A stretch of DNA of 64,000 bases. Source: Jiangella aurantiaca (GTDB lineage: Bacteria > Actinomycetota > Actinomycetes > Jiangellales > Jiangellaceae). Each line of letters begins with the position of its first letter. Positions within the stretch are counted from its first letter, which is position 1. Where the stretch lies: assembly GCF_004349105.1 (NCBI RefSeq), contig NZ_SMLB01000003.1, positions 124,001-188,000 of the forward strand. Reading direction: 5' to 3'. Positions 12,942-39,318 of the stretch are shown here, in pieces. The position numbers and the translations under genes were made by a program. The notes beneath the pieces were generated by a model, which saw nothing but the letters and a program-made list of their open reading frames with translations, was not told where the DNA came from and did not search any database.

Positions 12942-13123
12942 TGGCAACGATGCCACACCGGGTGACCCACCCGGCTCCTGGCGCGGAGCCGACTGTCCGT
13001 CCTTCTCCGGGGGTATGGACGGTTCGTACTCGTTGTGGACAGACGCGGCGCTCCCTCCTGGACGTCGCTGCTGACGTTCAGGCGTCGTTCGTCGGCGCCT
13101 CCCTCTGAAGTGGAGGACGGTCC

Positions 13124-18949: not shown

Positions 18950-20319
18950 CCTTCCGCTTCCCGCCGGGGTTCCTGTGGGGCGCGGCCACCTCGGCCCACC
19001 AGATCGAGGGCAGTCTGGACGCCGACGGCCGCGGCGAGTCGGTGTGGGATGTCTTCGCCCGGCAGGCCGGCGCCATCGAGGGTGGTGGTGACGGCTCACA
19101 TGCCTGCGACTCGTACCGGCGGTGGGCCGACGACGTCGACCTGATCGCCTCGCTCGGCCTGAACGCGTACCGGTTCTCCGTCGGCTGGTCGCGGATCCTG
19201 CCCGACGGCCGAGGCCGGGTCGAGAAGCGCGGGCTGGACCACTACGAGCGGTTCGTCGACGCGCTGCTGGACCGCGGCGTGACGCCGGTGCTGACGCTGA
19301 ACCACTGGGACATGCCGCAGGCGTTGATGAGCGACGGCGGCTGGGTCGCGCGGTCGTCCGTCGACGCGTTCGCCGAGTTCACCACCGCCGTCGCGGACCG
19401 GCTGGCCGACCGCGTCGAGTGGTGGGTCACGCAGAACGAGCCGTGGATCATCGCGCTGCTCGGCTACCAGTTGGGACTGCACGCTCCCGGCGTCCGCGAC
19501 CTCGGCGCGTCGGTGGCCGCCGGGCACCACGTCCTGCTCGCGCACGGCGCGGGCGCGGACATCCTGCGGCAGTATCCGCGGACGCGCGCCGGCGTCGCCC
19601 TGAGCCTGTTCCCGTGCGACCCGGCGACGCCGTCCGAGGAGGACGCCGCGGCCGCCCGGGGCTCCGACGGCTACGTGAACCGCTGGTACCTCGACCCGCT
19701 GGCCGGCCGCGGCTACCCCGCCGACATGCGCGAGCACTACGAACGCGCACTGGGCCGGCCGCTGACCGAGATCCGCGACGGCGACGAGGACGCCATCGCC
19801 GGGCGCAGCGACTTCCTCGGCGTGAACTACTACACCCGCCGGGTCATGGCCGCTGCCGAGCCGGGCGAGGGGCGGCCGTTCCCGTGGCGGGTGGTCGGCC
19901 CGTCCGGCGACGTCGCCCGCACCGACGAGGGCTGGGAGATCGCGCCGGACTCGTTCCGCGACCTGCTGCTGCGGCTGCACCGCGACTACGGCTTCGCGCT
20001 GATGGTGACGGAGAACGGCGGCGTCTTCGGCGACGCGCCGCTGCACGACGGGCGGGTCCGCGACGTGCGCCGGCAGTCGTTCCTGCGCGGCCACGTGCGG
20101 GCGATGGGCGAGGCGATGGCGGCCGGCGCCGACGTGCGTGGCTACCTGCACTGGTCGCTGCTGGACAACTTCGAGTGGTCGCTGGGCTACCGGCCGCGGT
20201 TCGGCCTGGTGCACGTCGACTACCCGACCGGGCGCCGGACCGTGAAGGACTCCGGCCGGCTCTATGCACGCATCGCCGCGGCGGGCACGACCGACCCCGA
20301 GGAGAGTGAGAACGCGTGA
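18946..20319 (+). CDS. Glycoside hydrolase family 1 (beta-glucosidase-like)
   Basis: 457-residue single-domain TIM barrel of normal GH1 length. FPPGFLWGAATSAHQIEG at the N-terminus is the GH1 signature. The acid/base is E165 in WWVTQNEPW; the nucleophile is E356 in LMVTENGG. The C-terminal WSLLDNFEWSLGY is the sugar-binding strand. No secretion signal, so cytoplasmic. GH1 covers beta-glucosidases, beta-galactosidases and beta-mannosidases, and the exact specificity cannot be read here. ATG 18946 overlaps the GH2 stop (ATGA), so both are made together. Confidence 0.93.
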   Translation: MTFRFPPGFLWGAATSAHQIEGSLDADGRGESVWDVFARQAGAIEGGGDGSHACDSYRRWADDVDLIASLGLNAYRFSVGWSRILPDGRGRVEKRGLDHYERFVDALLDRGVTPVLTLNHWDMPQALMSDGGWVARSSVDAFAEFTTAVADRLADRVEWWVTQNEPWIIALLGYQLGLHAPGVRDLGASVAAGHHVLLAHGAGADILRQYPRTRAGVALSLFPCDPATPSEEDAAAARGSDGYVNRWYLDPLAGRGYPADMREHYERALGRPLTEIRDGDEDAIAGRSDFLGVNYYTRRVMAAAEPGEGRPFPWRVVGPSGDVARTDEGWEIAPDSFRDLLLRLHRDYGFALMVTENGGVFGDAPLHDGRVRDVRRQSFLRGHVRAMGEAMAAGADVRGYLHWSLLDNFEWSLGYRPRFGLVHVDYPTGRRTVKDSGRLYARIAAAGTTDPEESENA

Positions 20320-22160
20320 CGTTGACCGTCACCGAGACCGACGGCGGCATCGTCGTCACCGGCGCAAGCTACGGACTGGAGGTGCAGGCCGAGCAGCCAC
20401 GGGCGGTGCTCCGCGACGCTGACGGGAAGGTCTGGACCGAGCTGTCGCTGCTCGCCGGGCTGGACCTGGTCGGCGGCCGGGACGAGTCGTACGACCTCGC
20501 GCCGGCCCGCGTCGTCGAGCGCACCGATCGCGCGGTCGAACTGGTCGTGGCGTCGACCAGCTCGCTGTGGGAGCACAAGGCCGTGCACGTGCGCTGCACG
20601 GCCGGCGAGCTCGAGGTGTGGGCGACCGTGTCGGGACGGCGCGCGGACACCGGTGCCACGGCCCGGCTCGCCGAGGTGACGATGCTGGGCGGCCGTGCGG
20701 TGCTGCCCAACGGCGCCGGCGGCACGTTCCGCTCGGCCATCCGGTTCGCATCGCTGTTCAGCCCGACGCCGACCGAGCCGGTGCACGTGGTCCGTCCATC
20801 GACCGCCGGCGCGTCGCTGGGCGTCGTCGGTGACGCCGAGCCCGGCCGCCTGCACGGCATCTTCTCCCCGCCCCCGCTCTGCTGGGCGGTGGGCGACCGG
20901 CTGGCCGAGGACGCGACCGACGTCCCGGCGGGCCGCTGGTGGGGGGTGTCGTTCTGTGCGCCGGTCGACGAGCTGACCATGACCGCGGTCCGGTACGCGC
21001 CGCTGGACGGCGGGTTCCTGCTGCGGCTGGACTACGAGGGGCACACCGTCGTCGGCGACCGGTTCCGCACGCCGACGCTGGTGCTGCGGCCGGCCGCCAC
21101 CCCATGGCAGGCGCTGACGGACTACCGCGACGACCTGGTCGCGCGGGGGCTGGCGCCGTCGCCGCCCGCGCCCGGACCGGACTGGTGGGCCGAGCCGATC
21201 TTCTGCGGCTGGGGCGCCCAGTGCGCCCGGATCGCGGCGCTGAAGGTCGAGCCGGCCGGTGCCGCCGACGGGCTGATCGGCGCGGCCACCGCCGCGACGG
21301 CCGCCCACCTGGCCCGGCAGGACGTGTACGACGAGTTCCTGGCCATCCTCGACAAGGGCGGGCTCGACCCCGGCACGATCGTGATCGACGATCGCTGGCA
21401 GGCCGCGTACGGCACGGGCGACGTCGACCTCGACCACTGGCCCGACCTGCGTGGCTGGATCGCCGCCCGGCACGCCGAGGGCCGCAAGGTGCTGCTGTGG
21501 TGGAAGGCCTGGGATCCGCAGGGGCTGCCGGTCGAGGAGTGCGTCACCGACCCGCTCGGCCGGCCGGTCGCCGTCGACGTCGCGAACCCGGCGTACCGCG
21601 CCCGGCTGCGGCGGATCGTGACGGAGCTGCTCGGCCCGGACGGCCTGGACGCCGACGGCTTCAAGGTCGACTTCACCCAGCGATCGCCGTCGGGCGAGTC
21701 GCTGCGCGCCGCCGAGGGCCCGTGGGGCATCGCCGCCCTCCACACGTTGCTGGCCACGATGACCGAGGCGGCGAAGGCGGCCAAGCCCGACGCGCTGATG
21801 GTCACGCACACGCCGCACCCCTCGTTCGGCGACGTCTGCGACATGGTCCGCCTCAACGACGTGCTGGAGCGCGACAACGCCGGCGACCCGGTGCACGTGG
21901 TCGAGCAGCTGCGGTTCCGGTTCGGCGTCGCCGACAGCAGCCTGCCGGGGCACCTCGTCGACACCGACCAGTGGCCGATGCCGGACCGGGCGTCCTGGCG
22001 CGCGTACGTCGAGGCCCAGGCGGCGCTCGGGCCGCTGGCCGTCCCGGCGCTGTACTACCTGGAGTCCATCGACGGCTCCGGCGAGGAGCTGACGGCGGAC
22101 GACCTCGGCCTGGTCGCGCGGACGTGGGCGGCCTACCGCTCCGGACGGGGAACGGCATGA
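20316..22160 (+). CDS. TIM-barrel glycosidase of the GH31/GH36 kind, family unassigned
   Basis: 614-residue cytoplasmic protein. Residues 1-~280 look like a beta-sandwich domain. The second half is a barrel with IVIDDRWQ, GRKVLLWWKAWDPQG and DADGFKVDFTQR. IDDxWQ plus KxD on successive strands is the pattern of alpha-galactosidase-type (GH36/GH27) and GH31 enzymes, where the Asp of the KxD strand is the nucleophile. A candidate acid is the Asp pair in HLVDTDQW. I do not recognise a precise family. ATG 20316 overlaps the GH1 stop and its stop overlaps the FAD gene. It likely cleaves an alpha-linked sugar from the imported glycan. Confidence 0.65.
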   Translation: MTLTVTETDGGIVVTGASYGLEVQAEQPRAVLRDADGKVWTELSLLAGLDLVGGRDESYDLAPARVVERTDRAVELVVASTSSLWEHKAVHVRCTAGELEVWATVSGRRADTGATARLAEVTMLGGRAVLPNGAGGTFRSAIRFASLFSPTPTEPVHVVRPSTAGASLGVVGDAEPGRLHGIFSPPPLCWAVGDRLAEDATDVPAGRWWGVSFCAPVDELTMTAVRYAPLDGGFLLRLDYEGHTVVGDRFRTPTLVLRPAATPWQALTDYRDDLVARGLAPSPPAPGPDWWAEPIFCGWGAQCARIAALKVEPAGAADGLIGAATAATAAHLARQDVYDEFLAILDKGGLDPGTIVIDDRWQAAYGTGDVDLDHWPDLRGWIAARHAEGRKVLLWWKAWDPQGLPVEECVTDPLGRPVAVDVANPAYRARLRRIVTELLGPDGLDADGFKVDFTQRSPSGESLRAAEGPWGIAALHTLLATMTEAAKAAKPDALMVTHTPHPSFGDVCDMVRLNDVLERDNAGDPVHVVEQLRFRFGVADSSLPGHLVDTDQWPMPDRASWRAYVEAQAALGPLAVPALYYLESIDGSGEELTADDLGLVARTWAAYRSGRGTA

Positions 22161-23689
22161 CCGACGTCGTGGTCTACGCGGCGACCTCCGGCGGTGTGTG
22201 CGCGGCGGTCGCGGCTGCCCGGGCCGGTGCGTCCGTCGTCCTGCTGGAGCCGGGGCGGCACGTCGGCGGCATGACGTCCGGCGGACTCGGCTACACCGAC
22301 ATCGGCGACGTGCGAGTGGTGGGCGGGATGGCCGGCGACCTGCGCCGGGCCATCGCGGACTGGTACGGCGTCGCCGAGGGCCACTACGCCGGGCCGGAGC
22401 CGCACGTCGCCGAGGCGATCTACCTGCGCTGGCTGGAGGAGGCCGGGGTGGACGTCCGCTTCGGCGCGGCCCTCACGGCGGCCGATGCCGACGGCGGGGT
22501 CATCCGCTCGGTCGAGCTGGCCGACGGTTCGCCCGTCACCGGCGCGGTGTTCGTCGACGCGTCCTACGAGGGCGACCTGCTCGCCGCCGCGGGCGTGCCG
22601 CACGCCCTCGGACGTGAGGACCGGTCGCTCTACGGCGAGCGCTACGCCGGGCGGCAGGAGCTGGTGCCCGGGCGGCACACCGTCCCGCCGTGGATCTCCC
22701 CGTTCGCCGGCGACGTCTCCGGCGCGGCGGGTGGCGAGGTCCTGCCGCAGCTGCACGACCGTCCGCTCGCCGACGTCGGCACCGGCGACGGCGGAGTGAT
22801 GTCGTACGGCTACCGGGTCTGCCTGTCTCAGGCCGCGGACCGGGTGCCGTTCGAGCGCCGCGACGGCTATGACGACGCCTACTGGGAGCTCGGCCGGCGC
22901 ATCTTCGACCAGTGGCGGCGCGACGGTGTCGAGGTGCGGGCCGGGCAGTTGCTCGGCCTGGAGAAGAACCTGCCGAACGACAAGTGCGACGGCAACTCCA
23001 TCGGCCCGTTCTCGCTCAGTGTGCTGGACGGGTCGGCGTGGGCGTATCCGGAGGCCGGCCCGGCCGAGCGGGAGCGGATCCGGCTGCACCACGTGCACCA
23101 CGCGCGGGACTTCCTGTACTTCCTCTCGCACGACCCCGCCGTGCCGGCGTCGGTGCGCGAGGAGATGCAGGCCTGGGGTTATGCCGCCGACGAGTTCGCC
23201 GACACCGGCCACCTGCCGCACCAGCTGTACGTCCGTGAGGCGCGCCGGATGCTCGGCGAGTACGTGCTGACCGAGCACGACCTGCTGCCCGCGGCGCGGC
23301 CGCAGCACGACGTCGTGGCGATGGGCTCGTACCACATCGACGTCCGCGAGGTGCAGCGCACGTGGCGCTGGGTCGCCGAGCACCCGCGGCCGGTCGGCAT
23401 GGTGTTCACCGAGGGCTACCTGTCCGTGCCGGTGCAGCCGTACCCGATCCCCTATCGGGCGCTGGTGCCGCGGTACGCCGACTGCACGAACCTGCTGGTC
23501 CCGGTCTGCCTGTCCGCGTCGCACGTCGCGTTCGCGTCGGTGCGGATGGAGGTGCAGTACCAGATGCTCGGCCACGCTGCCGGGCTCGCCGCGGTGGAGG
23601 CGGCGCGGACCGTGCGGCCAGTGCAGTCGATCGACGTGTCCCGCGTGCAGGACGCGCTGCGCGACGCCGGGCAGGTGCTCGCGCTCTGA
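22157..23689 (+). CDS. FAD-dependent oxidoreductase (PF12831-type)
   Basis: 510-residue flavoprotein. The N-terminus VVVYAATSGGVCAAVAAARA is the modified Gly-rich FAD loop of the FAD_oxidored family, followed by GRHVGGMTSGGLGYTD. FVDASYEGDLL, SYHIDVREVQ and MEVQYQMLGHAAGLAA are further family marks. There is no signal peptide. Proteins of this family recur in polysaccharide-use loci, often without known function; sugar oxidation to a keto-sugar is one suggestion. It is the last gene of the first glycan operon, joined by a 4-bp overlap. Redox chemistry on a sugar released by the upstream glycosidases is inference. Confidence 0.8.
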   Translation: MTDVVVYAATSGGVCAAVAAARAGASVVLLEPGRHVGGMTSGGLGYTDIGDVRVVGGMAGDLRRAIADWYGVAEGHYAGPEPHVAEAIYLRWLEEAGVDVRFGAALTAADADGGVIRSVELADGSPVTGAVFVDASYEGDLLAAAGVPHALGREDRSLYGERYAGRQELVPGRHTVPPWISPFAGDVSGAAGGEVLPQLHDRPLADVGTGDGGVMSYGYRVCLSQAADRVPFERRDGYDDAYWELGRRIFDQWRRDGVEVRAGQLLGLEKNLPNDKCDGNSIGPFSLSVLDGSAWAYPEAGPAERERIRLHHVHHARDFLYFLSHDPAVPASVREEMQAWGYAADEFADTGHLPHQLYVREARRMLGEYVLTEHDLLPAARPQHDVVAMGSYHIDVREVQRTWRWVAEHPRPVGMVFTEGYLSVPVQPYPIPYRALVPRYADCTNLLVPVCLSASHVAFASVRMEVQYQMLGHAAGLAAVEAARTVRPVQSIDVSRVQDALRDAGQVLAL

Positions 23690-23971: not shown

Positions 23972-25615
23972 TCAGCGGGCGAGGACGGCCTGAACGAACG
24001 GCGGCACCACGGTCCGGAGCACGTTCTGCTGCTCGTGCGCCTCGGCGACGGCGAGCGCCTCGGCCGCCGCCGTCCGCTCCGCCGCACCGGCGGACGGCGC
24101 CAGCGCGGCCAGGGCGGCCAGCCCGGCCCGGCCGGTGTCGGCCAGGGCGACCAGCCACGGCATGACCTCCCGCTCGAGCCGGTCGGCCGGCTCGCGGTCG
24201 CCGTCGGGCGCGGCGGCGACCATCGCCTCGAACCGGTCCCGCAGCTGCTCGCCGGCCGCCGCGAAGCCGGCCAGCGCCGCATCGATCAGCGCGGAGAGCT
24301 CCGGGTCCTGCGGCGCCGACGGCGGCCACGACGCGCACGCGCGGGCCAGCGTCCGTACGGCCTCGGTGGCCCCGACGGCGTCCAGCGCGCGCCCGTGCGC
24401 GGTGACCGGGTCGTACGCCGCCGGGTTCCAGGCCCAGTCGGCGACGGTCGCGACCGCGATCTGCGACGCCGCCTCGTGCGGCATCGGGTTCGCCGTGATC
24501 CCGGCCAGCGGCGCGCCGCCGAGGTCGGTCGTCCGTCCGTGCAGCGGGCCGAGGAACAGCCGCGGGAAGTCGAAGTCGTTGACCGGGAAGTTGTCCCAGA
24601 GCAGCAGCCGGTGCCCGTACGACCGCGCCGCGGCGTCGATCTCGGCCCGCGTGATGTCACCGACCACGATGTCGCGCCCGGTCCACCAGACCAGCACCTC
24701 GGGCGGCAGCTCGGCGGCGAGCAGGTCGCGGTGCGGCGTCGCGTCGATGCCGGCGTAGTCGGTCGGAACCATGATCAGCGGCCGGTCCAGCCCGCTCGGT
24801 GCGAGGAAGCGCTCGATCACCGCGTGGCAGACCGCGGCGTGAGCCCGCGCCGACGACCCCGGCGCCGTGCCGAAGGCGGCGCGGTCCGCGTCGTGCTCCA
24901 GCTCCAGCGGGATGTCGTCGAACAGCAGCGCGAAGTCCTGGACGCCGGCCCGCCGGACCTGCTCCAGCTTCGCGATCAGCAGGTCCAGCTCGGCGGGGTC
25001 GCTGTAGACCATGGTCAGGCCGGGCGAGAGGGAGAAGACGAACCGCACATGCGAGCATTGCGCCGCGGCGGCCAGTTCGCCGATCCGGTCCAGCTCGGCC
25101 GCCGGGTAGGGCTCGCGCCACTGCTTGCGATGGTACGGGTCGTCCTTCGGCGCATAGACGTAGGTGTTGAGCTTGTGCCGGCCGGCGAACTCCAGGTGCG
25201 CCAGCCGGTCGGCGTGCGACCATGGCGGGCCGTAGAAGCCCTCGATCGTGCCGCGCCAGGGCAGCTCCGGCCGGTCCTCGACGGTGACCGGCGGCAGCAC
25301 GCCGTCCGCCGTCAGCGCGCGCAGCGTCTGGGCGCCGTAGAACGCGCCGGCCGGGTCCGATCCGGTGATGGTGACGGTGCCGCCGTCGACGACCAGGCGG
25401 TAGCCCTCTGCCGGGCCACCGGGCGTGACGTCCACCACGACGGTGACCGGCTCGCCGCCGTCCAGCGTCGGCGGACCGGCCAGCACGGCGGCCGCGTTCT
25501 CGCAGCCTACGGCGGCCTCGACCACCACGGAGCCCATGGGTAAACCGTCGTCTCCGGTGGCCACGAGGCGGTGGGGACGAGGGAGCACCCGCTCGGCCAG
25601 CTCAGGAAGCACCAC
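23972..25615 (-). CDS. GH84-type beta-N-acetylglucosaminidase
   Basis: 547-residue cytoplasmic enzyme. An N-terminal alpha/beta domain (1-~125) with GGTVTITGSDPAGAFYGAQT precedes the GH84 barrel that begins RGTIEGFYGPPWSHADRL. The catalytic Asp pair is D233-D234 in FALLFDDIPLE, used in substrate-assisted catalysis through the N-acetyl group. VWWTGRDIV and LLLWDNFPVND are further GH84 marks. The C-terminal ~130 residues are helical. No signal peptide is seen. GTG 25615 is chosen since homology starts near it. It lies only 24 bp from the divergent gene and has no good Shine-Dalgarno sequence, so the message may be leaderless. It should release GlcNAc from imported glycans. Confidence 0.88.
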   Translation of the reverse strand: MVLPELAERVLPRPHRLVATGDDGLPMGSVVVEAAVGCENAAAVLAGPPTLDGGEPVTVVVDVTPGGPAEGYRLVVDGGTVTITGSDPAGAFYGAQTLRALTADGVLPPVTVEDRPELPWRGTIEGFYGPPWSHADRLAHLEFAGRHKLNTYVYAPKDDPYHRKQWREPYPAAELDRIGELAAAAQCSHVRFVFSLSPGLTMVYSDPAELDLLIAKLEQVRRAGVQDFALLFDDIPLELEHDADRAAFGTAPGSSARAHAAVCHAVIERFLAPSGLDRPLIMVPTDYAGIDATPHRDLLAAELPPEVLVWWTGRDIVVGDITRAEIDAAARSYGHRLLLWDNFPVNDFDFPRLFLGPLHGRTTDLGGAPLAGITANPMPHEAASQIAVATVADWAWNPAAYDPVTAHGRALDAVGATEAVRTLARACASWPPSAPQDPELSALIDAALAGFAAAGEQLRDRFEAMVAAAPDGDREPADRLEREVMPWLVALADTGRAGLAALAALAPSAGAAERTAAAEALAVAEAHEQQNVLRTVVPPFVQAVLAR

Positions 25616-25617
25616 TA

Positions 25618-25631
25618 TGGGAACGATACCA
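25618..25631. promoter_or_regulatory. LacI-type operator in a 24-bp bidirectional promoter
   Basis: TGGGAACGATACCA is an imperfect palindrome with the central CG typical of LacI operators. It occupies most of the gap between the divergent GH84 (25615) and MBL-fold (25640) starts. GATACC and, on the other strand, TATCGT lie about 7-10 nt before each start, which suits two leaderless promoters covered by one operator. Confidence 0.7.
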
Positions 25632-25639
25632 TCGGGGTC

Positions 25640-27460
25640 ATGTCGTGGAGTGAGATCGCGCCCGGGGTGTTCCGCGTCCGGGACACCTGCAACGTGTATG
25701 TCGTCCGATCGCCGAACGGGCGCGATGGCATCGCCATCGACTTCGGCTCCGGCGCCGTGCTCGACCACCTCGCCGACATGGGCATCGACCGGCTCACCGA
25801 CGTCCTCATGACGCACCACCATCGTGACCAGGCTCAGGGCCTGCCGCGCGCCGTCGCCGCCGGCATCGCCGTCCACGTGCCGCCGGTCGAGCAGGACCTG
25901 TTCGCCGACGTCGACGACATGTGGTCGTCGCGTCCGATCGTCAACGACTACAACCTCCGGCAGGACAAGTTCTCGATCCTCGCGCCGGTGCCGGTCGCCG
26001 GCGTCGTGCCCGAGTACCGCACCGCCACGTACGGCGGCATCGACGTCCGCGTGCTGCCGACGCCCGGGCACACGACCGGCTCGGTGACGTACGTCGCCGG
26101 GGGCATCGCGTTCACCGGCGACCTCATCTACGCCCCGGGCAAGGTGTGGTCGCTGGCGGCCACCCAGTGGTCGTACACCGAGAACGAAGGCCCGGCCATG
26201 ACGGTGCTCAGCTGCTACCAGTTGCTCGAGGAGCCGCTGGAGCTGTTGCTGCCGTCGCACGGCGAGCCGATGGACGACCCGCACGGCGCGCTGAGCCTGC
26301 TGGCGCAGCGGATGCAGCGTTACGTCGACGCTCGCCGGCCGCAGCCGTGGGACCTGCGGACCTGGCTCGACGATCCGTTCATGCCACTCACCCCGCATCT
26401 GCTGCTCAACCGCACGAGCAACTCCTGTTCATACGTCTTGCTGTCGGAGACGGGGAACGCGCTGGTCATCGACTACGGCTACGACGTCTCGACCGGGCTG
26501 CCGTCGGGCACCGACCGCGCGTCGCGGCGGCCCTGGCTGGCGTCGCTGCGGGCGCTCCGCCGTCAGTACGGCGTCGACCGCGTGGAGGTGGCGCTGGCGA
26601 CGCACTACCACGACGACCACGTGGCCGGGATGCCGTTGCTGCGCGACGTCGAGGGCACGCAGGTCTGGGCGCCGTCGACGGTGACGCCGATCCTCGAGCA
26701 CCCGGAGCGCTACGACCTGCCGTGCCTCTGGTACGACCCGATCCCGGTCGATCGGTCGCTGCCCGTCGGCGAGTCCTTCCGCTGGCACGAGTACGAGATC
26801 ACCGTGCACGACCTCCCCGGGCACACCCTGTACCACGCCGGCTTCGAGTTCGAGGTCGACGGCGTGCGCGTGCTGGCCACCGGCGACCAGGAGGAGCACC
26901 TCGGCGTGCCGGGCGGCCGCCGCGAGGTGCTCAACTACCAGTACCGCAACCTGTTCCGCATCGGCGACTACCAGCGCAGCGCCCAGTTGTATCGCCGGGT
27001 CGCGCCCGGGCTCATGGTGAGCGGGCACTGGGAGCCGCGCTGGGTCGACCAGGAGTACCTCGACCTGCTGACGAAACTGGGCGACGAACTGGTCGAGCTG
27101 CACCAGGACCTGCTGCCGCTCGAGACGGTCGACTTCGGGGCCGGCGGCGTCGCCGCGGCCATCACGCCGTACCGCAGCACGGTTCCGGCAGGCGGCACGC
27201 AACGGCTCGACGTGACCGTGCGAAACCCGCTGCCGGAGAAGGCCGAGGTCACCGTGCGGATGGCGATCCCGATAGGCTGGGCGTCGGCACCGGCCGAGCA
27301 GGTGCTCACGCTGGCGGCCGGCGAAGAGGCGACCGCCACTTTCGACGTCACGGCCGGCAGCACGCCGCGCCGCCGTACGCCGGTCGCGGCCGACGTGACG
27401 GCCGGTGAGCTGCGGCTCGGCCAGTACGTCGAGGCGTTCGTCGACGTCGTGGAGCCGTGA
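25640..27460 (+). CDS. Tandem metallo-beta-lactamase-fold protein with C-terminal beta domain
   Basis: 606 residues with two complete MBL folds. Domain 1 (1-~240) has H59-x-H61-x-D63-Q64, LPTPGHTTGSV, FTGDLIY and LPSHGEP. Domain 2 (~255-510) has H322-x-H324-x-D326-H327, DLPGHTLYHAGF, LATGDQEE and MVSGHWEPR. Domain 1 has Gln where most hydrolases have the last motif His, so metal binding may differ. A ~90-residue beta-sandwich tail resembles NEW3/NPCBM-associated domains of glycan enzymes. Start ATG 25640 follows the divergent promoter. It is cotranscribed with the LacI gene. Substrate unknown; a lactone, ester or modified sugar is possible. Confidence 0.8.
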   Translation: MSWSEIAPGVFRVRDTCNVYVVRSPNGRDGIAIDFGSGAVLDHLADMGIDRLTDVLMTHHHRDQAQGLPRAVAAGIAVHVPPVEQDLFADVDDMWSSRPIVNDYNLRQDKFSILAPVPVAGVVPEYRTATYGGIDVRVLPTPGHTTGSVTYVAGGIAFTGDLIYAPGKVWSLAATQWSYTENEGPAMTVLSCYQLLEEPLELLLPSHGEPMDDPHGALSLLAQRMQRYVDARRPQPWDLRTWLDDPFMPLTPHLLLNRTSNSCSYVLLSETGNALVIDYGYDVSTGLPSGTDRASRRPWLASLRALRRQYGVDRVEVALATHYHDDHVAGMPLLRDVEGTQVWAPSTVTPILEHPERYDLPCLWYDPIPVDRSLPVGESFRWHEYEITVHDLPGHTLYHAGFEFEVDGVRVLATGDQEEHLGVPGGRREVLNYQYRNLFRIGDYQRSAQLYRRVAPGLMVSGHWEPRWVDQEYLDLLTKLGDELVELHQDLLPLETVDFGAGGVAAAITPYRSTVPAGGTQRLDVTVRNPLPEKAEVTVRMAIPIGWASAPAEQVLTLAAGEEATATFDVTAGSTPRRRTPVAADVTAGELRLGQYVEAFVDVVEP

Positions 27461-27475: not shown

Positions 27476-28525
27476 GTGGGGCGAGTGCCCAACGGTGACG
27501 GTAGGGCCGCGCCCGAGCTGACCCGCCGGGCCACCATCAAGGACGTCGCCGTCGCCGCGGGCGTCTCCCGCTCGACGGCGTCGCGAGCGCTCACCGGCCG
27601 CGGCTACGTCGCCACCGACGTGCGGGAACGGGTGCTGGCCGCCGCCGAGGACCTGCGCTACGTGCCCGACGCCACCGCTCGCTACCTCAAGCAGCAGGTC
27701 AGCCTGTCCATCGGCGTGCTCGTCTCCGACCTGCGCAACTCCTTCTACGCCCGCCTCGCCGCCGGCGTAGGCCAGGCCGCGCGCACCCAGGGCTACAGCC
27801 TGGTGCTGGCCGAGGACGGCGGCTCGGCCGAGGCGCAGGTGGAGGCCGCCGAGACGTTCGTCGCCACCCGCGTCGCCGGCGTCGTCGTCACACCGGTCTC
27901 CGCCGACGTCACCACCTACCTGTCCCGGCACCGCATCCCTGTGATCGAGGTCGACCGCCAGTTCGCGGCCGGCGCCTGCGACGCCGTCGTTGTCGACAAC
28001 CAGACCGCGTCGCAGCAGGTCATCGAGGATCTCATCGGGTTCGGGCACCGGCGCATCGCGCTGTTCATCGACGAGACCACGTGGACCACCGGCCGCGAGC
28101 GGCACGCCGGCTACCAGGCCGCGCTGGCCGCCGCCGGCATCCCGCTCGACCCCGACCTCGTCGTCTCCTCCGGCTGGGACGTCGACGCCGCGCGGGCCGC
28201 GGCCAGGGCGCTGCTCCGGTCGGACGAGCGGCCGACCGCCGTGTTCGCCGCCAACAATGTCCTCGCCGAGGGCGTGTGGCGGGCGGCGAACGACCTCGCG
28301 CTGCGTATCCCCGACGACGTCAGCCTCGTCTCCTTCGACGACGCGCCCTGGATGAGCTTGGTCACGCCCGGCCTCACCGCCGTCGCCCAGGACGAGGCCG
28401 CCCTAGGTGCGGCCGCTGTCCGCCGGCTGCTCGAGCGCATCGCCGAGCCGGAGGCCGCCCCGGTGACGGTCATGATGACGACCCGCATCGTCCACCGGCA
28501 GTCCACCCGTGCCGTCACGCCCTGA
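27476..28525 (+). CDS. LacI-family transcriptional regulator of the glycan locus
   Basis: 349-residue repressor. The HTH is ATIKDVAVAAGVSRSTASRA (about 20-40) with the hinge region to ~80. The effector domain is periplasmic-binding-protein-like (SIGVLVSDLRNSFYARLAAG, VSLVSFDDAPWMSL). GTG 27476 starts 15 bp after the MBL stop, so the repressor is in its own regulated operon. LacI operators have a central CG; four such 14-bp sites (12926, 25618, 31424, 31589) sit at the promoters of the two transporter operons, the GH84/MBL pair and the GH38-like gene. I infer one local regulon with an oligosaccharide or sugar inducer. Confidence 0.92.
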   Translation: MGRVPNGDGRAAPELTRRATIKDVAVAAGVSRSTASRALTGRGYVATDVRERVLAAAEDLRYVPDATARYLKQQVSLSIGVLVSDLRNSFYARLAAGVGQAARTQGYSLVLAEDGGSAEAQVEAAETFVATRVAGVVVTPVSADVTTYLSRHRIPVIEVDRQFAAGACDAVVVDNQTASQQVIEDLIGFGHRRIALFIDETTWTTGRERHAGYQAALAAAGIPLDPDLVVSSGWDVDAARAAARALLRSDERPTAVFAANNVLAEGVWRAANDLALRIPDDVSLVSFDDAPWMSLVTPGLTAVAQDEAALGAAAVRRLLERIAEPEAAPVTVMMTTRIVHRQSTRAVTP

Positions 28526-28840: not shown

Positions 28841-31408
28841 TCAGACCGACCGACGCAGCCAGACGTCCGCGACGGCGTGTGGCGTGAGCTCGAGCTCCAG
28901 ACCGCCCTCGGTGCCGAGCGGCTGCCAGGTGCCGGCGGGCGCGGTGGCCTCGACCACGCCGGCCGCCGCCCAGCTCAGCCGCGCCCGCACCGGCGCGGCC
29001 GACAGCGACCGCAGCCGGGCCAGGACCACGCCGTCGGCGTCGGCCGGCCGGAGGTCGACCAGCACGTCCTCGCCCGGAGACACCACCAGCCCGGCCGCAC
29101 CAGACGGCGCGACGTGGCCGGCGTACTGCCGGGAGACCAGCGGGTGCAGCAGATCGTCGCCGAAGCGGCGGACGGCCGCCGCGTCGTGCGAGCGGGCCGC
29201 GAACCGGTAGCGGAACGTCTGCGTCCCACCTTGGGCGGCGCGGAAGTTGGTGAAGTGCAGGTTGTTCATCAGCCAGCTGTTCACGTGCCCGGCCGGCGCG
29301 TCGAGCGAGCGAGCCCACTTCCCGGTCTGGAAGCCGCCGAACTGCGCCAGCGGCGCGTCGTACGAGCCCCACAGCACGGCGCTCCCGGTACCCGACACGC
29401 CGGCGGCGTGCTGAATCGCGTACCAGTCCTTGCTGGTGTCGGAGAGCTGCTCGTGCTCGGCGACGAACGCCGCGCCGGCCGTCTCGACCAGGAAGCGCGG
29501 GTCGGCGACGGCGAACGGGAACGTGACGAACAGGCTCTCCGGGGCGAGGGTCTCGGCCTTGGCGACGGTCACGTCAAGGTCGATCAGGTCGAACGACGGG
29601 TACAGCCGCAGCGTCGTGCTCACGTTGACGCCGGCGACACTGCCGGACCACGTCAGCGCGGTGAACGAGGTGCCCCGCATGACGCGCACCGGTGCGCTCG
29701 ACGTCGCTGCCGCCCGGTCGAACTCGGGGCCGGGGAAGTCCGGATGGAAGTCGCGCGGCCGGACCAGGAACGGGTGTTCTGAGTCGGCCGGAATCATCTC
29801 GGCGACCAACGCACCCAGCGGGAACGCGCTGCCGGCGTCGACCAGGTCGGCGCCGGTGCGCCGGTCGACGAGGCTCACGACACCGCCGCGCCCGGGATCG
29901 ACGGTGACGGCGTACTCGGGCGTCTCGACGGTGCCAGCGGTGTCGTCGCTCACGGGTTCGGCCGGCAGCTCCACAGTCGTGACCCCGAACGGCTCCACCG
30001 TGGCCGTCACCACGGTCGTCCGCTGCCCGGCCAGCTCGACCAGGACGGGTTCGGTGCGACGCCGGGCGGTCGGGTTCATCACCACGATCGACGGCCCGCC
30101 GAGGCAAGTGCGGTCGGTGCCGAGCCCGGTCCGGTGCATCGCGGAGCCCGCCACGTCGCCAGAACCGCTGGCCAGCAGCCGGAACAGGCCTTCGGTGGCC
30201 ACGTGCCGGGCGATGTCGTAGGCGCCGTAGGCGAATCCCGCTTTGGCGTTCCAGTGCGACGCCGTGTAGACGCTGTCCGGGCGCGAGAAGCTCTCCCACG
30301 AGCCCCAGGTGTGCTCGCCGAACAGCCAGAGCTGCTCGTCGACGAAGGCGAGGTCGTCGGTCAGCTCGGCCCGCGACCGCAGCCGCACCGGGCCGCGCGA
30401 GTGACCGAGGACGGACGCGAGGTCGACCGCGCCGTCGCCGCGCAGGTCGGACAGCGCGTGCAGCACCTCACCGGTCAGCTGGTGCGTCCGCGCCTGCCGG
30501 TACACCGCCAGCTCGCGGGCGGTCGAGCCGTGGCCGTGCGACCACCAGTCGGCCCACTCGCCCCGCACCACCGGCAGCTCCACCGACGCGGCCACCCGCT
30601 CGAGACGGTCCAGCGCATCGTCCATGGTGGCCAGCCGCATCGGGCGGTCGGGATGCAGCTCGTTCCACTGCGCCATCAGCGGCAGGAACTCCAGCGTCGG
30701 CCACCGGTTGTCGTTGGCGGCGTGCACGACGGCCACGTCGAACGGGTAGTCGTCGCGTTCGTCCAGCTCGTCGACGAGGGCCGCGATGCGCTTCGCCGCC
30801 AGCCGGACGTCGCCGTCGATGATCCCCCATTCCTCGCCGATGCCGTAGTGGGTGCTGAGCAGCACGAACACGCGCGAGCCGTCCGGGCCCTCCCACCAGA
30901 ACCCGCTGGGCTGCGGGAACGGCGGGCGGCCGTGGTCGGGGTTGAGCGCCATCACCAGGCGGCTCACGCCGTGCCGGCGCATGGCCGGGACGCTGCCCCA
31001 GGAGAGCCCGTTGACGTCGCCGTGCTGCTCGGTGCGCACCGGGATCCCGGCCTCGGCCAGCGGTGCGAGCGCCTCGTACATGCGCTCCAGCTCGCGCTCC
31101 CCCGGCAGCTGGGTCAGGTTGAGGTAGCCGGCCGTGACGGCGACGCGGCCGTCGAGAACCAGCCGTCGCAGCCGGTCGACGTCGGCGCGGCCGGCGCGGC
31201 GGACGAACTCGATGACCGGGCGGCTGATCTCGAACGTCCACCGCAGCGCGGCGTCGCCGTCACCCTCGGTCCGGTCGCACAGGTCGAGGACATGCCTGAC
31301 GATGTCGCGGTGCTGGCGGTCGATGAGCCGCGGGCTGTCGGTGTAGCCGACGTCGTGGTGGGTGTGCGGGACGAGCAGGATCTCGCGTACGCGCGAACCA
31401 GCGGGCAC
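28841..31408 (-). CDS. GH38-related alpha-mannosidase-like protein, atypical
   Basis: 855 residues. The N-terminal domain begins EILLVPHTHHDVGYTDSP, an H-x-H-x-D metal motif like GH38 but with GYTD in place of the usual xxW. RTEQHGDVNGLSWGSVPAM and VMALNPDHGRPP follow; the normal GH38 nucleophile motif (D-x-FGHN) is absent, the nearest Asp being in NPDHG. The C-terminal two thirds hold a helical segment and beta domains as in GH38. GTG 31408 is chosen for its GGAG at 7 nt and for homology. The LacI-type operator lies just upstream at 31424. Probably cytoplasmic and acting on alpha-linked sugars, but the changed active site makes the specificity uncertain. Confidence 0.7.
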   Translation of the reverse strand: MPAGSRVREILLVPHTHHDVGYTDSPRLIDRQHRDIVRHVLDLCDRTEGDGDAALRWTFEISRPVIEFVRRAGRADVDRLRRLVLDGRVAVTAGYLNLTQLPGERELERMYEALAPLAEAGIPVRTEQHGDVNGLSWGSVPAMRRHGVSRLVMALNPDHGRPPFPQPSGFWWEGPDGSRVFVLLSTHYGIGEEWGIIDGDVRLAAKRIAALVDELDERDDYPFDVAVVHAANDNRWPTLEFLPLMAQWNELHPDRPMRLATMDDALDRLERVAASVELPVVRGEWADWWSHGHGSTARELAVYRQARTHQLTGEVLHALSDLRGDGAVDLASVLGHSRGPVRLRSRAELTDDLAFVDEQLWLFGEHTWGSWESFSRPDSVYTASHWNAKAGFAYGAYDIARHVATEGLFRLLASGSGDVAGSAMHRTGLGTDRTCLGGPSIVVMNPTARRRTEPVLVELAGQRTTVVTATVEPFGVTTVELPAEPVSDDTAGTVETPEYAVTVDPGRGGVVSLVDRRTGADLVDAGSAFPLGALVAEMIPADSEHPFLVRPRDFHPDFPGPEFDRAAATSSAPVRVMRGTSFTALTWSGSVAGVNVSTTLRLYPSFDLIDLDVTVAKAETLAPESLFVTFPFAVADPRFLVETAGAAFVAEHEQLSDTSKDWYAIQHAAGVSGTGSAVLWGSYDAPLAQFGGFQTGKWARSLDAPAGHVNSWLMNNLHFTNFRAAQGGTQTFRYRFAARSHDAAAVRRFGDDLLHPLVSRQYAGHVAPSGAAGLVVSPGEDVLVDLRPADADGVVLARLRSLSAAPVRARLSWAAAGVVEATAPAGTWQPLGTEGGLELELTPHAVADVWLRRSV

Positions 31409-31423
31409 GATGACACTCCGTTG

Positions 31424-31437
31424 TGGGAACGATCTCG
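31424..31437 (-). promoter_or_regulatory. LacI-type operator upstream of the GH38-like gene
   Basis: TGGGAACGATCTCG; the extended form TGTGGGAACGATCTC differs from the 12924 site at only two bases over 15. It is 16 bp upstream of the GTG at 31408 and downstream of a TTGACG (minus strand, 31475-31470) that could be the -35. Confidence 0.65.
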
Positions 31438-31588
31438 GCACACCGAGCCAAGCACGGCCTTCGACGGGCCGTCAAGGCTGTACGCCCTGACCTGGCTATT
31501 CGGCAGAATGCCGGGTAGAAAGCGGTTTCCAGCACGTCGTAGCGGGTTGACGGTGCCGAGGAGAGCTTGTCATGATGCGGGCGGATGA

Positions 31589-31602
31589 TGGGATCGATCC
31601 CA
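31589..31602 (+). promoter_or_regulatory. Perfect LacI-type operator upstream of ABC system 2
   Basis: TGGGATCGATCCCA is a perfect 14-bp palindrome, the best of the four sites. A possible promoter TTGACG (31547-31552), 18-nt spacer, CATGAT (31571-31576) would place the start of transcription just before it, a classic repressing position. The ATG of the binding protein is at 31669. Confidence 0.8.
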
Positions 31603-31668: not shown

Positions 31669-33048
31669 ATGCGGAGACCCATGGTGCTACCGGCCATCAT
31701 GGCCGGCGCGGCCACACTCACCCTCACCGCCTGCGGGGGAGTCGGTGGCGGCGACGATTCGGACGGCGGCGGCGACTCGCAGTCCGGCGACCTGTCTGCC
31801 GACCCGAGCGGTTCGATCACCACCATCGGTTTCGCGCTTCCAGACGAAATCGCCACGGTCCGCGTCGACACGTTCCGGGAGATGTACCCGGACGTCGAGG
31901 TCAACATCAACGAGGGCGGCTTCGACGAGCAGCAGTTCCTGACGTCGGTCTCCAGCGGCGACCCGACCGAGCTGGTCTACATCCCCGGCGACCAGGTGGG
32001 CGCGTTCGCCGCCCGCGGCGCCATCCAGCCGCTCGACGAGTGCATCGAGCAGCGTGACATCGACCTCGGCCAGTACCGGCCGAACGTCCTCGATCTGGTC
32101 CAGTACGACGACTCCACCTACGCGATCCCGGAGTTCTACAACACCCCGGTCCTCATCGTGAACAACACCGTCCTGGCCCAGGCCGGATTGTCCGCCGCGG
32201 ACATCGACATCTCCGACCAGGAGAGCCTGCTGGCCGCGGCCCAGGCGCTCACCGTCCGCAACGGCAGCACCTACGAGCGCATCGGCATCCACCTCCGGCT
32301 GCCCGACCTCACCCCGTTCTACGGCGTGGTCGACGGCAACCCGTGGGTCGCGGCCGCCGACGACTTCCGGCTCGACGACCCCGCCACCGTCGCCACCATG
32401 GAGCGGCTGAAGGCGGTCCAGGACGCTCAGGGCGGCCACACGGCGCTCAAGGACTTCGAGAACACCTGGGACCTGTTCGGTGAGGGCAACCCGTTCGCGC
32501 AGAACCAGGTCGGCGCCATGGTGATCGAGCAGTGGTACGTGAACGTGCTGGCCAACACGTCGCCGGACGTCGACATCACCGTGCTGCCCATCACGAACGC
32601 CGACGGCGACACCGTCACCTGGGCGACCTCCAACGCCTGGGCCATTCCGAAGGACGCCGACAACGCCGCCACGTCCTGCGAGTTCATGAAGATCATGACC
32701 GCGCCTGACACGTGGGCGGCCGCGGCCGAGGAGCGGATCCGGCTGCGCGAGGCCGAGGGCAAGGCGTTCACCGGCATCTACACCGCCAACGAGGCGGCCG
32801 ATGACAAGGTCTTCGGGGAGCTGTACACGCCGGGCACCGGCGAGAACCAGAAGTGGGACGACGCCGTCCAGTCCGTCCTCGAGGCCCAGGCCGACGCCTG
32901 GGTGGTGCCGGCGAACCCCGTCGGCGCCCAGTTCAAGGCCGCCTGGCTGGAGGCCACGAACCGCATCCTCGCCGGTACCCAGGACGCTCCGAGCGCCCTG
33001 GCCGAGGCCCAGGACAAGGTCGAGCAGGCGCTCGCCGATGTCGGCTGA
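31669..33048 (+). CDS. ABC importer sugar-binding lipoprotein (system 2)
   Basis: 459-residue solute-binding protein. The signal peptide ends in the lipobox LTLTAC followed by a Gly/Asp/Ser linker. FDEQQFLTSVSSGDPTELVY, GAFAARGAIQPLDECI and GAMVIEQWYVNVL are close counterparts of parts of the binding protein at 13124, so the two are paralogues. AAGAGGGAGC precedes ATG 31669. The gene leads the second transporter operon, which continues through permeases, ROK kinase, SIS protein and GH38. The ligand probably overlaps that of system 1 or is another fragment of the same glycan. Confidence 0.93.
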   Translation: MRRPMVLPAIMAGAATLTLTACGGVGGGDDSDGGGDSQSGDLSADPSGSITTIGFALPDEIATVRVDTFREMYPDVEVNINEGGFDEQQFLTSVSSGDPTELVYIPGDQVGAFAARGAIQPLDECIEQRDIDLGQYRPNVLDLVQYDDSTYAIPEFYNTPVLIVNNTVLAQAGLSAADIDISDQESLLAAAQALTVRNGSTYERIGIHLRLPDLTPFYGVVDGNPWVAAADDFRLDDPATVATMERLKAVQDAQGGHTALKDFENTWDLFGEGNPFAQNQVGAMVIEQWYVNVLANTSPDVDITVLPITNADGDTVTWATSNAWAIPKDADNAATSCEFMKIMTAPDTWAAAAEERIRLREAEGKAFTGIYTANEAADDKVFGELYTPGTGENQKWDDAVQSVLEAQADAWVVPANPVGAQFKAAWLEATNRILAGTQDAPSALAEAQDKVEQALADVG

Positions 33049-34006
33049 CGTCTCCACCGCGCCGGTGGCGCCTCCGCTGTCCCGGGGGCGCCGCTGGCGC
33101 GCGGCCTGGCGCCGGCCGGAGACCCGCTGGGCGTACCTGTTCCTGCTGCCGTGGATCCTCGGGTTCCTGATCTTCACGGCCGGGCCGATGCTCGCGAGCC
33201 TGGTGCTGTCGTTCACCGACTACGACGTCATCAACCCGGCGTCGTACGTCGGCGGCGAGAACTACCAGCGCATGGTCGAGGACCCGCAGGTGCGGACGGC
33301 GCTGTTCAACACACTGCTCTACACCGTGATCCACGTGCCGCTGTCCATCGCGATCGCGCTGGCGCTGGCGGTGCTGCTCAACCAGATCGGCGGACGGTTC
33401 GCCGGCTTCTTCCGCACCGTCTTCTACATGCCCGCCATGACGCCGACCGTGGCCGTCGGCGTCCTGTTCCTGCTGCTGCTCAACGGGCAGAACGGGCTGG
33501 TCAACGCCGCTCTCGGGCTGTTCGGCGTCGACGGTCCGGCGTGGACGACGGATCCGGCGTGGGTGCGCTGGGGCATCATCATCATGAGCCTCTGGACGAT
33601 CGGCGGGACCATCGTCATCCTGTTCGCCGCGTTGAAGAACGTTCCGATGGACCTCTACGAGGCCGCGCGCATCGACGGCGCCGGCGCCTGGCGGCAGTTC
33701 CGCGAGGTCACCGTCCCGATGATCTCCGGCTCGCTGTTCTTCGTGACCATCGTGAACACGATCGCCTCGCTGCAGATGTTCACCGAGGTCTACACGATGT
33801 TCTACGGCAACGCGCAGAGCCAGCTGCAGGCGTCTGACAGCGCGCTGTTCTACGTCATCTACCTGTTCCGGCAGGGCTTCCAGTTCCTCGAGATGGGCTA
33901 CGCGTCGGCGCTGGCCTGGGGCCTGTTCGTCATCGTGTTGATCGTCACGCTGGTGCAGGTGAAGCTCGGCGACCGGTTCGTCTACTACGAGGGGGACGAC
34001 CGATGA
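33038..34006 (+). CDS. ABC sugar transporter permease, MalF type (system 2)
   Basis: 322-residue permease. ATG 33038 overlaps the binding-protein stop by 11 bp. Helix 1 is YLFLLPWILGFLIFTAGPM; the EAA loop is LYEAARIDGAGAWRQFREVT followed by VPMISG. Segments such as LSFTDYDVINP and DGPAWTTDPAWV match the permease at 14533 almost word for word. No ATPase gene accompanies it. Confidence 0.93.
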   Translation: MSADVSTAPVAPPLSRGRRWRAAWRRPETRWAYLFLLPWILGFLIFTAGPMLASLVLSFTDYDVINPASYVGGENYQRMVEDPQVRTALFNTLLYTVIHVPLSIAIALALAVLLNQIGGRFAGFFRTVFYMPAMTPTVAVGVLFLLLLNGQNGLVNAALGLFGVDGPAWTTDPAWVRWGIIIMSLWTIGGTIVILFAALKNVPMDLYEAARIDGAGAWRQFREVTVPMISGSLFFVTIVNTIASLQMFTEVYTMFYGNAQSQLQASDSALFYVIYLFRQGFQFLEMGYASALAWGLFVIVLIVTLVQVKLGDRFVYYEGDDR

Positions 34007-34911
34007 CCATGGTCCAGGTGGAGCCCACGCGGCCGGCTGGCGGCGACCAGCGCCGGCGCCCGCCGTCCGGTACGTCCCCGGCCCGCCGGGTGATCCGGAC
34101 GGGGTTCATCGTCACGGCCGTCGCGCTGGTGGCGGCGACGTTCACCTACCCGTTCCTGTGGCTGGTCAGCGCCTCGCTGAAGCCGCGGTACCAGGTGTTC
34201 GACAACCTGCTGATCCCGCGAGAGGTGCAGCCGCAGAACTACACGAGCCTGCTCGACGCCGTCCCGTTCCTCACCTGGTTCGGCAACAGTCTGATCGTCG
34301 GCATCATGGCCGCGCTGACGGTGACGCTGAGCAGCGCACTCGTCGCGTTCGGCTTCGCGTACTTCCGCTTCCCCGGGCGGAACGTGCTGTTCCTGCTGGT
34401 GCTGGGCACGATGATGCTGCCGGCGGCCGTCACGCTGATCCCGACGTTCCTCATCTGGCAGGAGCTCGGGCTGTCGCAGACCCAGGTGCCGCTGTGGGCG
34501 CAGAACGTGTTCGCGTCGGCGTTCTACGTGTTCCTGATGCGGCAGTTCTTCCTCAGCCTGCCGCGCGACACCTTCGAGGCGGCGCGGGTCGACGGCTGCG
34601 GCTACTTCGGGTTGTTCTGGCGCATCGCGATGCCGTTGTGCAAGCCGGCGCTCATCGTGGTGTTCATCTTCGAGTTCCGGGCCAGCTGGACCGACCTGAT
34701 CCGGCCGCTGATCTATCTCCAGGACGAGGCGCTCTTCACGATCCCGCGGGGACTGAAGGCGATCCTGGATGCGTTCGGACAGGGCGGGGAGCAGCAATGG
34801 GAGATCGTCGCCGCCGCGTCGGTGCTGGCCACCGTCCCGCTGATCATTCTGTTCTTCTGCGCCCAGCGGTACTTCGTGGAGGGGATCGCCACGCAGGGGC
34901 GCAAGGGGTGA
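34003..34911 (+). CDS. ABC sugar transporter permease, MalG type (system 2)
   Basis: 302-residue permease with SASLKPRYQVFDNLLIP, six helices and the EAA loop PRDTFEAARVDGCGYF...MPLCKPAL. ATG 34003 overlaps the previous stop by 4 bp. Length and motifs equal those of 15492-16400. It ends just before the ROK kinase region. Confidence 0.93.
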   Translation: MTMVQVEPTRPAGGDQRRRPPSGTSPARRVIRTGFIVTAVALVAATFTYPFLWLVSASLKPRYQVFDNLLIPREVQPQNYTSLLDAVPFLTWFGNSLIVGIMAALTVTLSSALVAFGFAYFRFPGRNVLFLLVLGTMMLPAAVTLIPTFLIWQELGLSQTQVPLWAQNVFASAFYVFLMRQFFLSLPRDTFEAARVDGCGYFGLFWRIAMPLCKPALIVVFIFEFRASWTDLIRPLIYLQDEALFTIPRGLKAILDAFGQGGEQQWEIVAAASVLATVPLIILFFCAQRYFVEGIATQGRKG

Positions 34912-34988: not shown

Positions 34989-36014
34989 ATGAACGACACG
35001 GCACAGCACCAGGGTGGACGCGCGGTACCACCCGCACCCGGCGACGGCGGTGGACCTGCGGCCGCCGTGCTGTCCCTGGACATCGGCGGCACGAAGCTGG
35101 CCGTCGGCGTCGTGACGCCGGACGGCGCGGTGCACGGCTTGCTCGTCGAGCCGACGCGGCGCTGGGAGGGCCCGGACGCCGTGATCCGCCGGCTCTTCGA
35201 CCTGGGCCACCGTGCGGTCGCTGCGGCCGGGCTGGACCGGCCGATCGACGCGGTCGGGATCTCCTGCGGCGGGCCGCTCGACAGCAGCACCGGCGTGCTC
35301 ATCTCGCCGCCGCACCTGCCGGGCTGGCTCGACGTCCCGCTGGGCGGGCTGACTCGCCAGGAGTTCGGGGTGCCGGCGTACCTGGAGAACGACGCGACGG
35401 CGGCCGCGCTCGGCGAGCACCGGTTCGGCGCCGCCCGCGGCGTGAGCACGATGATCTATCTGACCATCTCGACCGGGGTCGGCGGCGGCGCGGTCATCGA
35501 CGGCCGGCTGCACCGGGGTGCGGCCGGCAACGGCGGCGAGCTGGGCCACCTGATGGTGCGCCCGGGCGGCCGGCTGTGCTCGTGCGGGCGCCGCGGCTGC
35601 CTCGAGGCGTACGTGTCCGGCACGAACATCGCCGAGCGCGCGGCCGAGGGACTGCGCGCCGGGGCCTCCTCGTCGCTGCGCGACGCCGACCCGCTGACGG
35701 CGGCCGACATCGCGGAGGCGGCCCGGGCCGGCGACGCGTTCGCCCGGGAGATCTGGGCCGAGACCACCGACGTGCTGGGCCAGGCGCTGACCGATCTGGT
35801 GAACGTGTTCGAGCCTGAGCTGGTGGTACTGGGAGGCGGCGTCACCCGGGCCGGCGCGATGCTGCTGGACCCCGTTGCCGAGGCGGTGGCGCGCGACGCG
35901 ATGCCGCCGGCGGCCAAGGCGGCCCGCGTGATCCTGGCCGGCCTCGGCGACGTCGTCTGCGTCGTCGGCGCCGGCGTGGTCGCGCTGGACGCACTGGAGG
36001 TGGAGCATGACTGA
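34989..36014 (+). CDS. ROK-family sugar kinase
   Basis: 341-residue kinase. VLSLDIGGTKLAVGVV is the phosphate-binding loop; ENDATAAALGEHRFGA and TGVGGGAVIDG are ROK motifs. The zinc site reads GELGH with CSCGRRGCLEAY, so this is an enzyme without the N-terminal HTH of ROK repressors. It should phosphorylate a released sugar such as glucose, mannose or GlcNAc. Start choice is uncertain: ATG 34989 (AGGAAG upstream) is used; GTG 34908 would overlap the permease stop by 4 bp as elsewhere in the operon but adds a low-complexity N-terminus, and ATG 34956 is also possible. Its stop overlaps the SIS gene by 8 bp. Confidence 0.87.
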   Translation: MNDTAQHQGGRAVPPAPGDGGGPAAAVLSLDIGGTKLAVGVVTPDGAVHGLLVEPTRRWEGPDAVIRRLFDLGHRAVAAAGLDRPIDAVGISCGGPLDSSTGVLISPPHLPGWLDVPLGGLTRQEFGVPAYLENDATAAALGEHRFGAARGVSTMIYLTISTGVGGGAVIDGRLHRGAAGNGGELGHLMVRPGGRLCSCGRRGCLEAYVSGTNIAERAAEGLRAGASSSLRDADPLTAADIAEAARAGDAFAREIWAETTDVLGQALTDLVNVFEPELVVLGGGVTRAGAMLLDPVAEAVARDAMPPAAKAARVILAGLGDVVCVVGAGVVALDALEVEHD

Positions 36015-39311: not shown

Positions 39312-39318
39312 GGCGGAC

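Follow-up and report, generated by a model that had tools for sequence, protein, structure and literature searches.

A tandem metallo-beta-lactamase-fold protein with two conserved metal-site motifs in a LacI-linked glycan cluster of Jiangella aurantiaca

The 64-kb window (the whole stretch of DNA from the soil bacterium Jiangella aurantiaca that was analysed) codes for a protein, called tandem-MBL hereafter, that has two metallo-beta-lactamase (MBL) domains in one chain, both with conserved metal-site residues, and that is encoded in a cluster of glycosidase, sugar importer and LacI-family repressor genes. Our leading but tentative reading, to which we give slightly less than an even chance, is that of a cytosolic two-site MBL hydrolase in LacI-controlled glycan catabolism, most likely cutting an ester or a lactone. 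The weaker claim, that of a two-site MBL hydrolase serving a glycan pathway, is much safer.

The open reading frame runs from an ATG at position 25640 to a stop codon that ends at 27460, and it is organized as follows.

25640..27460, plus strand: tandem-MBL gene, 606 aa (frame and start agree with the homologues)
25640..26374, plus strand: domain 1, MBL fold, residues 1-245 (Pfam, structure alignment, invariant residues)
25814..25831, plus strand: HHHRDQ motif of domain 1, residues 59-64 (H59-H60-H61-R62-D63-Q64)
26375..27115, plus strand: domain 2, MBL fold, residues 246-492 (Pfam, invariant residues, hhalign to domain 1)
26603..26620, plus strand: HYHDDH motif of domain 2, residues 322-327 (H322-Y-H324-D-D326-H327)
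27116..27457, plus strand: putative C-terminal beta-sandwich, NPCBM_assoc/NEW3-like, residues 493-606 (PF10633, model strands)

The first-pass annotation had proposed two MBL folds in one chain, and the profile searches bear this out. Scanned alone, each half scores above the Pfam Lactamase_B (PF00753) cut-off of 22.7 bits (47.0 bits for domain 1 and 49.8 bits for domain 2), and the two halves align with each other (hhalign E 8.6e-9, 24% identity over 202 columns). The AlphaFold2 model, based on 42 sequences (mean pLDDT 87.1, pTM 0.85), comprises two MBL-like halves and, after them, strands that span residues 506-604. In comparisons with the PDB, in which the matches listed are mostly to domain 1, that domain (model residues 1-233) aligns with solved MBLs with VIA-align Z scores of about 21, and it has the alpha-beta-beta-alpha fold (Z 21.0, rmsd 2.3, 192 aligned residues). 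The beta-rich tail of the type found on glycan enzymes, also proposed initially, is retained in part. The model of this region is all-beta, which supports a NEW3-like domain, and residues 493-606 score 26.1 bits with NPCBM_assoc/NEW3 (PF10633) when scanned alone, but the score falls to 20.2 in the whole protein, for a cut-off of 24.4; by sequence, the assignment appears marginal. Judging by N-terminal hydrophobicity, no signal peptide was seen in tandem-MBL, and the reading of a secreted enzyme was rejected since its N-terminus has no visible signal peptide.

The metal motifs are as first described, H59-H61-D63 and H322-H324-D326-H327, with Gln in place of the last His in domain 1. The full sets of metal-site residues are H59, H61, D63, Q64, H144, D161 and H207 in domain 1, and H322, H324, D326, H327, H395, D416 and H463 in domain 2. 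The latter corresponds to the canonical HxHxDH motif followed by His, Asp and His; domain 1 departs from it at the last His of the motif (Gln64) and has the other six residues. All 14 residues, including Gln64, are invariant across 54 actinobacterial sequences. A larger set of 74 homologues was assembled from the actinobacterial loci and family genomes, plasmid records and a distant actinobacterial genome (G009). The pattern HHDQHDH / HHDHHDH is kept in 69 of them, down to 49% identity; with both sites complete in these and in the window protein, tandem-MBL does not have the single dead domain of the tRNase ZL type. Gln64 is found in 72 of the 74, rhizobia and haloarchaea among them, and it is therefore not a local mutation, a sequencing error or a lineage quirk.

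The two Deinococcus homologues have a broken domain 1 site, reading HHDVQGL and HHDVPSH in a loosely aligned region, and a whole domain 2 site. Conversely, in the proteins of Mesorhizobium, Sinorhizobium and Haladaptatus, the domain 1 site is intact, Gln included, and one ligand of domain 2 is changed (H395Q). As one site is lost in Deinococcus and the other is altered in rhizobia and Haladaptatus, the two sites appear to be separable, and their independent loss or alteration would be best explained by two separate active sites. The architecture and the conservation of these residues suggest that both sites bind metal.

The surroundings of the gene in the window are listed below.

9240..10472, minus strand: 3-oxo-tetronate kinase (OtnK) of a linked sugar-acid branch (NF043035, 425 bits, cut-off 350)
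16280..18949, plus strand: GH2-type glycosidase
18946..20319, plus strand: GH1 protein, beta-glucosidase type
20316..22160, plus strand: GHDl, protein with a predicted clan GH-D fold (AlphaFold2, Foldseek)
22124..23689, plus strand: FAD-dependent oxidoreductase (PF12831, matched within a longer frame)
23972..25537, minus strand: GH84 beta-N-acetylglucosaminidase, divergent partner of tandem-MBL (PF07555, E 1.1e-96)
27476..28525, plus strand: LacI-family repressor (PF00356 and PF13377)
28841..31441, minus strand: GH38 N-terminal-domain protein (PF01074, E 4e-9, weak match)
31681..34911, plus strand: solute-binding protein (SBP2) and two sugar-type permeases
34989..36014, plus strand: ROK-family sugar kinase
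36007..36603, plus strand: SIS-domain isomerase, GmhA-like
36600..39311, plus strand: GH38 alpha-mannosidase (PF01074, E 3.3e-60)
39301..41253, plus strand: GH127-like protein (PF07944, E 2.8e-7)

The promoter region said to be common to tandem-MBL and GH84 is a divergent gap of 102 bp (GH84 starts at 25537 on the minus strand), and the LacI gene said to lie behind tandem-MBL begins 15 bp 3' of it. The window harbours two ABC importers, and no signal peptide was seen in the glycosidase neighbours. The GH38-like protein at 28841-31441 (minus strand) matches the N-terminal domain only, and it has a relative in 5 of the 53 homologous loci described below. The segment 9240-12863 codes for the 3-oxo-tetronate kinase, a DeoR regulator, a LacD-type aldolase and one more protein, a relative of the Asp/Glu-racemase-like gene product in the Deinococcus cluster. 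In several Microbacteriaceae-type loci these genes occur in linkage with the MBL cluster, as the kinase gene does in most Jiangella genomes. In addition, two minus-strand genes separated by about 42 kb (2-1363 and 42881-44140) have PP2C-phosphatase-like products with near-identical starts, MPLTLRYxARSDVGLVREGNEDSGYAGPxLLAVADGMGGHAAGEVAS, and they probably result from a duplication.

The same LacI-type palindrome was found at three places in the window.

12942..12955, no strand: palindrome identical to that of the GH84/MBL gap, 5' of the SBP1-permease-GH2-GH1-GHDl-FAD oxidoreductase run
25618..25631, no strand: palindrome TGGGAACGATACCA in the GH84/MBL gap, candidate operator
31589..31602, no strand: identical palindrome, 5' of the SBP2-permease-ROK-SIS-GH38-GH127-like run

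The search pattern TGGnAnCGnTnCCA, with one mismatch permitted, returned just these three sites (12942, 25618 and 31589), and all are exact. Its expectation in the window under the same conditions is 1.25, so the count is weak by itself, and exactness and position carry the argument; a narrower pattern gave 6 strand hits for 0.43 expected. Across the homologous loci, the palindrome occurred 147 times, versus 24 in shuffled sequence, and in 36 of the 53 loci it lies within about 100 bp of the tandem-MBL start. It is thus a shared motif, and the LacI repressor of the cluster would be its likely ligand. Given the palindrome at 31589, the most likely start of SBP2 is 31681.

Full-length relatives of tandem-MBL with 58-97% identity are encoded in 53 actinobacterial loci, in Jiangella, Phytoactinopolyspora, Cellulomonas, Nonomuraea, Microbacterium, Leifsonia, Georgenia and other genera. 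Within the locus DNA examined, GHDl is present in 51 of these loci, LacI in 44, ROK in 39, SIS in 34, GH38 in 31, the GH127-like protein in 30, the FAD oxidoreductase in 28 and GH84 in 25. On two Deinococcus plasmids, the GH84 gene directly follows the MBL gene, with GH38, GH2, GHDl and a four-carbon acid sugar kinase around them; no annotated LacI was found near the MBL gene in these two clusters. The tandem-MBL homologue of genome G009 (49% identity) is next to GH84 and is clustered with a member of the four-carbon acid sugar kinase family, a NEW3-bearing GH38, importer parts and an FAD oxidoreductase, and GHDl is encoded about 10 kb away. Together with the palindromes, these loci uphold the initial proposal of a tandem MBL in a glycan regulon. 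The 3-oxo-tetronate kinase gene, linked to the cluster in most Jiangella genomes as stated above, either is not close to the MBL gene or was not found in 5 of the 14 MBL-bearing family genomes (G397, G406, G411, G413 and G415).

Tandem-MBL was described as unusual, and indeed only 2 of 396 sampled actinobacterial genomes carry it, including that of the window, an approximate count as fewer candidates were scored per genome than in the smaller sample. Outside the phylum, the search covered plasmid records, compared as proteins, and one genome-contig scan, so the taxonomic range given here is a minimum. A phage origin was discarded, as phage records yielded no match. GH84 was likewise discarded as an obligate partner, since 12 of 24 MBL-bearing genomes, chosen mostly because GH84 is absent beside the MBL gene, have none anywhere.

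Close homologues with a known function unrelated to glycans, which the first-pass annotation had named as the observation that would speak against its proposal, were not found. The nearest ones outside glycan clusters are those of rhizobia and Haladaptatus, with 31-34% identity; their location counts against a glycan role. They carry no functional annotation beyond the name of the fold, and their neighbours yield no substrate. Two such rhizobial/haloarchaeal homologues (L059 10001-11872 and L060 9965-11857), 47% identical to each other, adjoin genes of beta-hydroxy/keto-acid or sugar-acid catabolism, and both have Gln for H395.

The most constant neighbour, GHDl, matches no Pfam family in its own right. 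Foldseek searches with its AlphaFold2 model (pLDDT 91) retrieved GH36 and GH31 enzymes, the best match being a Flavonifractor galactosaminidase (TM-score about 0.6, 13% identity). On the strength of these matches, the predicted fold is that of clan GH-D, and GHDl is a candidate for an unassigned glycosidase family. Tandem-MBL and GHDl are found in the same 14 of the 22 family genomes and both are missing from the others (Fisher p 3e-6, ignoring shared ancestry). GHDl thus fits the role of MBL partner better than GH84.

In the pathway that we propose, the ABC transporters would bring in oligosaccharides, to be trimmed by GH84, GH38, GH2, GH1 and the GH-D-fold protein. From the family activities, the set of GH84, GH38 and GH2 seems to resemble an N-glycan-like catabolism. 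As no signal peptides were seen in tandem-MBL and its glycosidase neighbours, tandem-MBL would work in the cytosol on imported oligosaccharides. It would remove a linkage that is not glycosidic, an ester or a lactone being the likeliest, from an oligosaccharide or an oxidised sugar product. Each domain would have its own metal centre, as in a dinuclear-metal hydrolase. Domain 2, with the canonical site, is probably the glycan-related one, since it is the only site retained in the Deinococcus glycan clusters; domain 1 would be a functional variant in which Gln takes the second-metal position.

Enzymes of the MBL type that have these ligands usually hydrolyse esters, lactones, thioesters or phosphodiesters, and the ester, lactone or phosphodiester chemistry initially suggested for tandem-MBL would be plausible for the superfamily. 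The presence of 3-oxo-tetronate-kinase-type genes in the window, Deinococcus and G009 fits a lactone-capable sugar-acid branch, hence our first guess of a lactone or an ester. However, neither the FAD oxidoreductase nor the tetronate kinase is an obligatory partner, which weakens the lactone story. A more speculative possibility, which we deem unlikely, is that the dual-centre MBL and the unclassified GH-D-fold enzyme cooperate on a glycan linkage or modified sugar that no known enzyme opens, and that lineages have specialised according to the centre that they keep.

MBL folds act also on phosphodiesters, thioesters and persulfides. The sites of tandem-MBL might thus cut a phosphodiester decoration such as a sugar-phosphate or glycerol-phosphate link. 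Domain 2 matches Lactamase_B_2 (PF12706; 32 bits, cut-off 27), which we take to be the Pfam entry that contains RNase Z-type phosphodiesterases. However, the RNase Z (TIGR02651) and PhnP equivalog models score far under their cut-offs (17.1 versus 292.95 bits and 26.7 versus 272.25 bits, respectively), and the conserved cluster has no recognisable phosphate-related gene, which makes this activity improbable.

We are distinctly doubtful of a thioesterase or aldehyde detoxifier of the glyoxalase II or persulfide dioxygenase type that would protect the cell during rapid sugar catabolism. Glyoxalase II (GloB, TIGR03413) is the best NCBIfam match, and the PGHT...TGD region of domain 1 can be aligned with MBL structures, those of GloB type among them, but the score of 62.9 bits, gathered over several stretches, is well under the cut-off of 200.8, and a housekeeping role is not expected from a gene so strictly linked to glycosidases and a sugar repressor. 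Just as doubtful is a metal-dependent glycosidase or lyase that would cut a glycosidic bond by itself, or act in sequence with the GH-D-fold protein on a linkage that resists ordinary glycosidases. The full co-occurrence with GHDl in the family genomes and the close linkage to GH84 would agree with it; the argument comes purely from context, and we know of no MBL-fold glycosidase.

It is very unlikely that tandem-MBL serves to destroy the LacI inducer and thereby tunes the repressor encoded behind it. LacI is directly 3' of the MBL gene in most loci, with the palindrome on the 5' side, but 9 of the 53 loci have no LacI beside the MBL gene, and the Deinococcus MBL and GH84 clusters have none annotated nearby. 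Finally, a true beta-lactamase conferring antibiotic resistance is hardly credible despite the fold, the motif and a score of 60.3 bits with the class B core model, as tandem-MBL is under every beta-lactamase cut-off (100 bits for that model; 46.8 versus 240 bits for subclass B3, NF033105), has no visible signal peptide and sits in a sugar regulon.

Many MBL-fold proteins encoded in genomes are named just 'MBL fold metallo-hydrolase'. Tandem-MBL comes with a clear regulon and a constant partner, GHDl, of unassigned specificity, and the lineages in which site 1 is lost or site 2 is changed provide a natural experiment on its activity. Tandem-MBL could point to a step other than glycosidic cleavage in the catabolism of N-glycan-like substrates, along with an unassigned GH-D family.

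In the open-access papers searched, we found no published description of tandem-MBL or its cluster, nor of a protein that combines two intact but unequal centres with a NEW3-like tail and belongs to a LacI glycan regulon. Glyoxalase II shares the MBL fold and the metal motif with tandem-MBL, but not its two MBL domains or its glycan cluster. AHL lactonases of the AidB type share the fold and the proposed kind of chemistry, but they have a single MBL domain, and the AidB model (NF047979) scores 35.7 bits on tandem-MBL for a cut-off of 360; UlaG is another MBL-fold lactonase. The NEW3 domain (PF10633), marginal on the tandem-MBL tail and detected there only when the tail is scanned alone, is also carried by the GH38 of the G009 cluster. 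A Cronobacter sakazakii MBL protein of the HARLDQ type (PDB 6dqh) has a metal motif that ends in Gln like that of domain 1, with which it aligns over 212 residues (VIA-align Z 20.6, rmsd 2.9). However, it has Arg in place of the second His, whereas the HHHRDQ motif of domain 1 retains both His residues, and the HARLDQ-type model NF000405 scores 17.4 bits on tandem-MBL (cut-off 350). Variants at the last His occur in bona fide MBL members, including B1 beta-lactamases (PMC7785958). Long-form tRNase Z proteins (ELAC2, yeast Trz1) also have two MBL domains in a single chain, thought to originate from a duplication (PMC2942849, PMC7785958). In those proteins, metal binding is gone from one domain (PMC7785958, PMC2942849), whereas both sites of tandem-MBL are intact, and they are invariant in the window's family.
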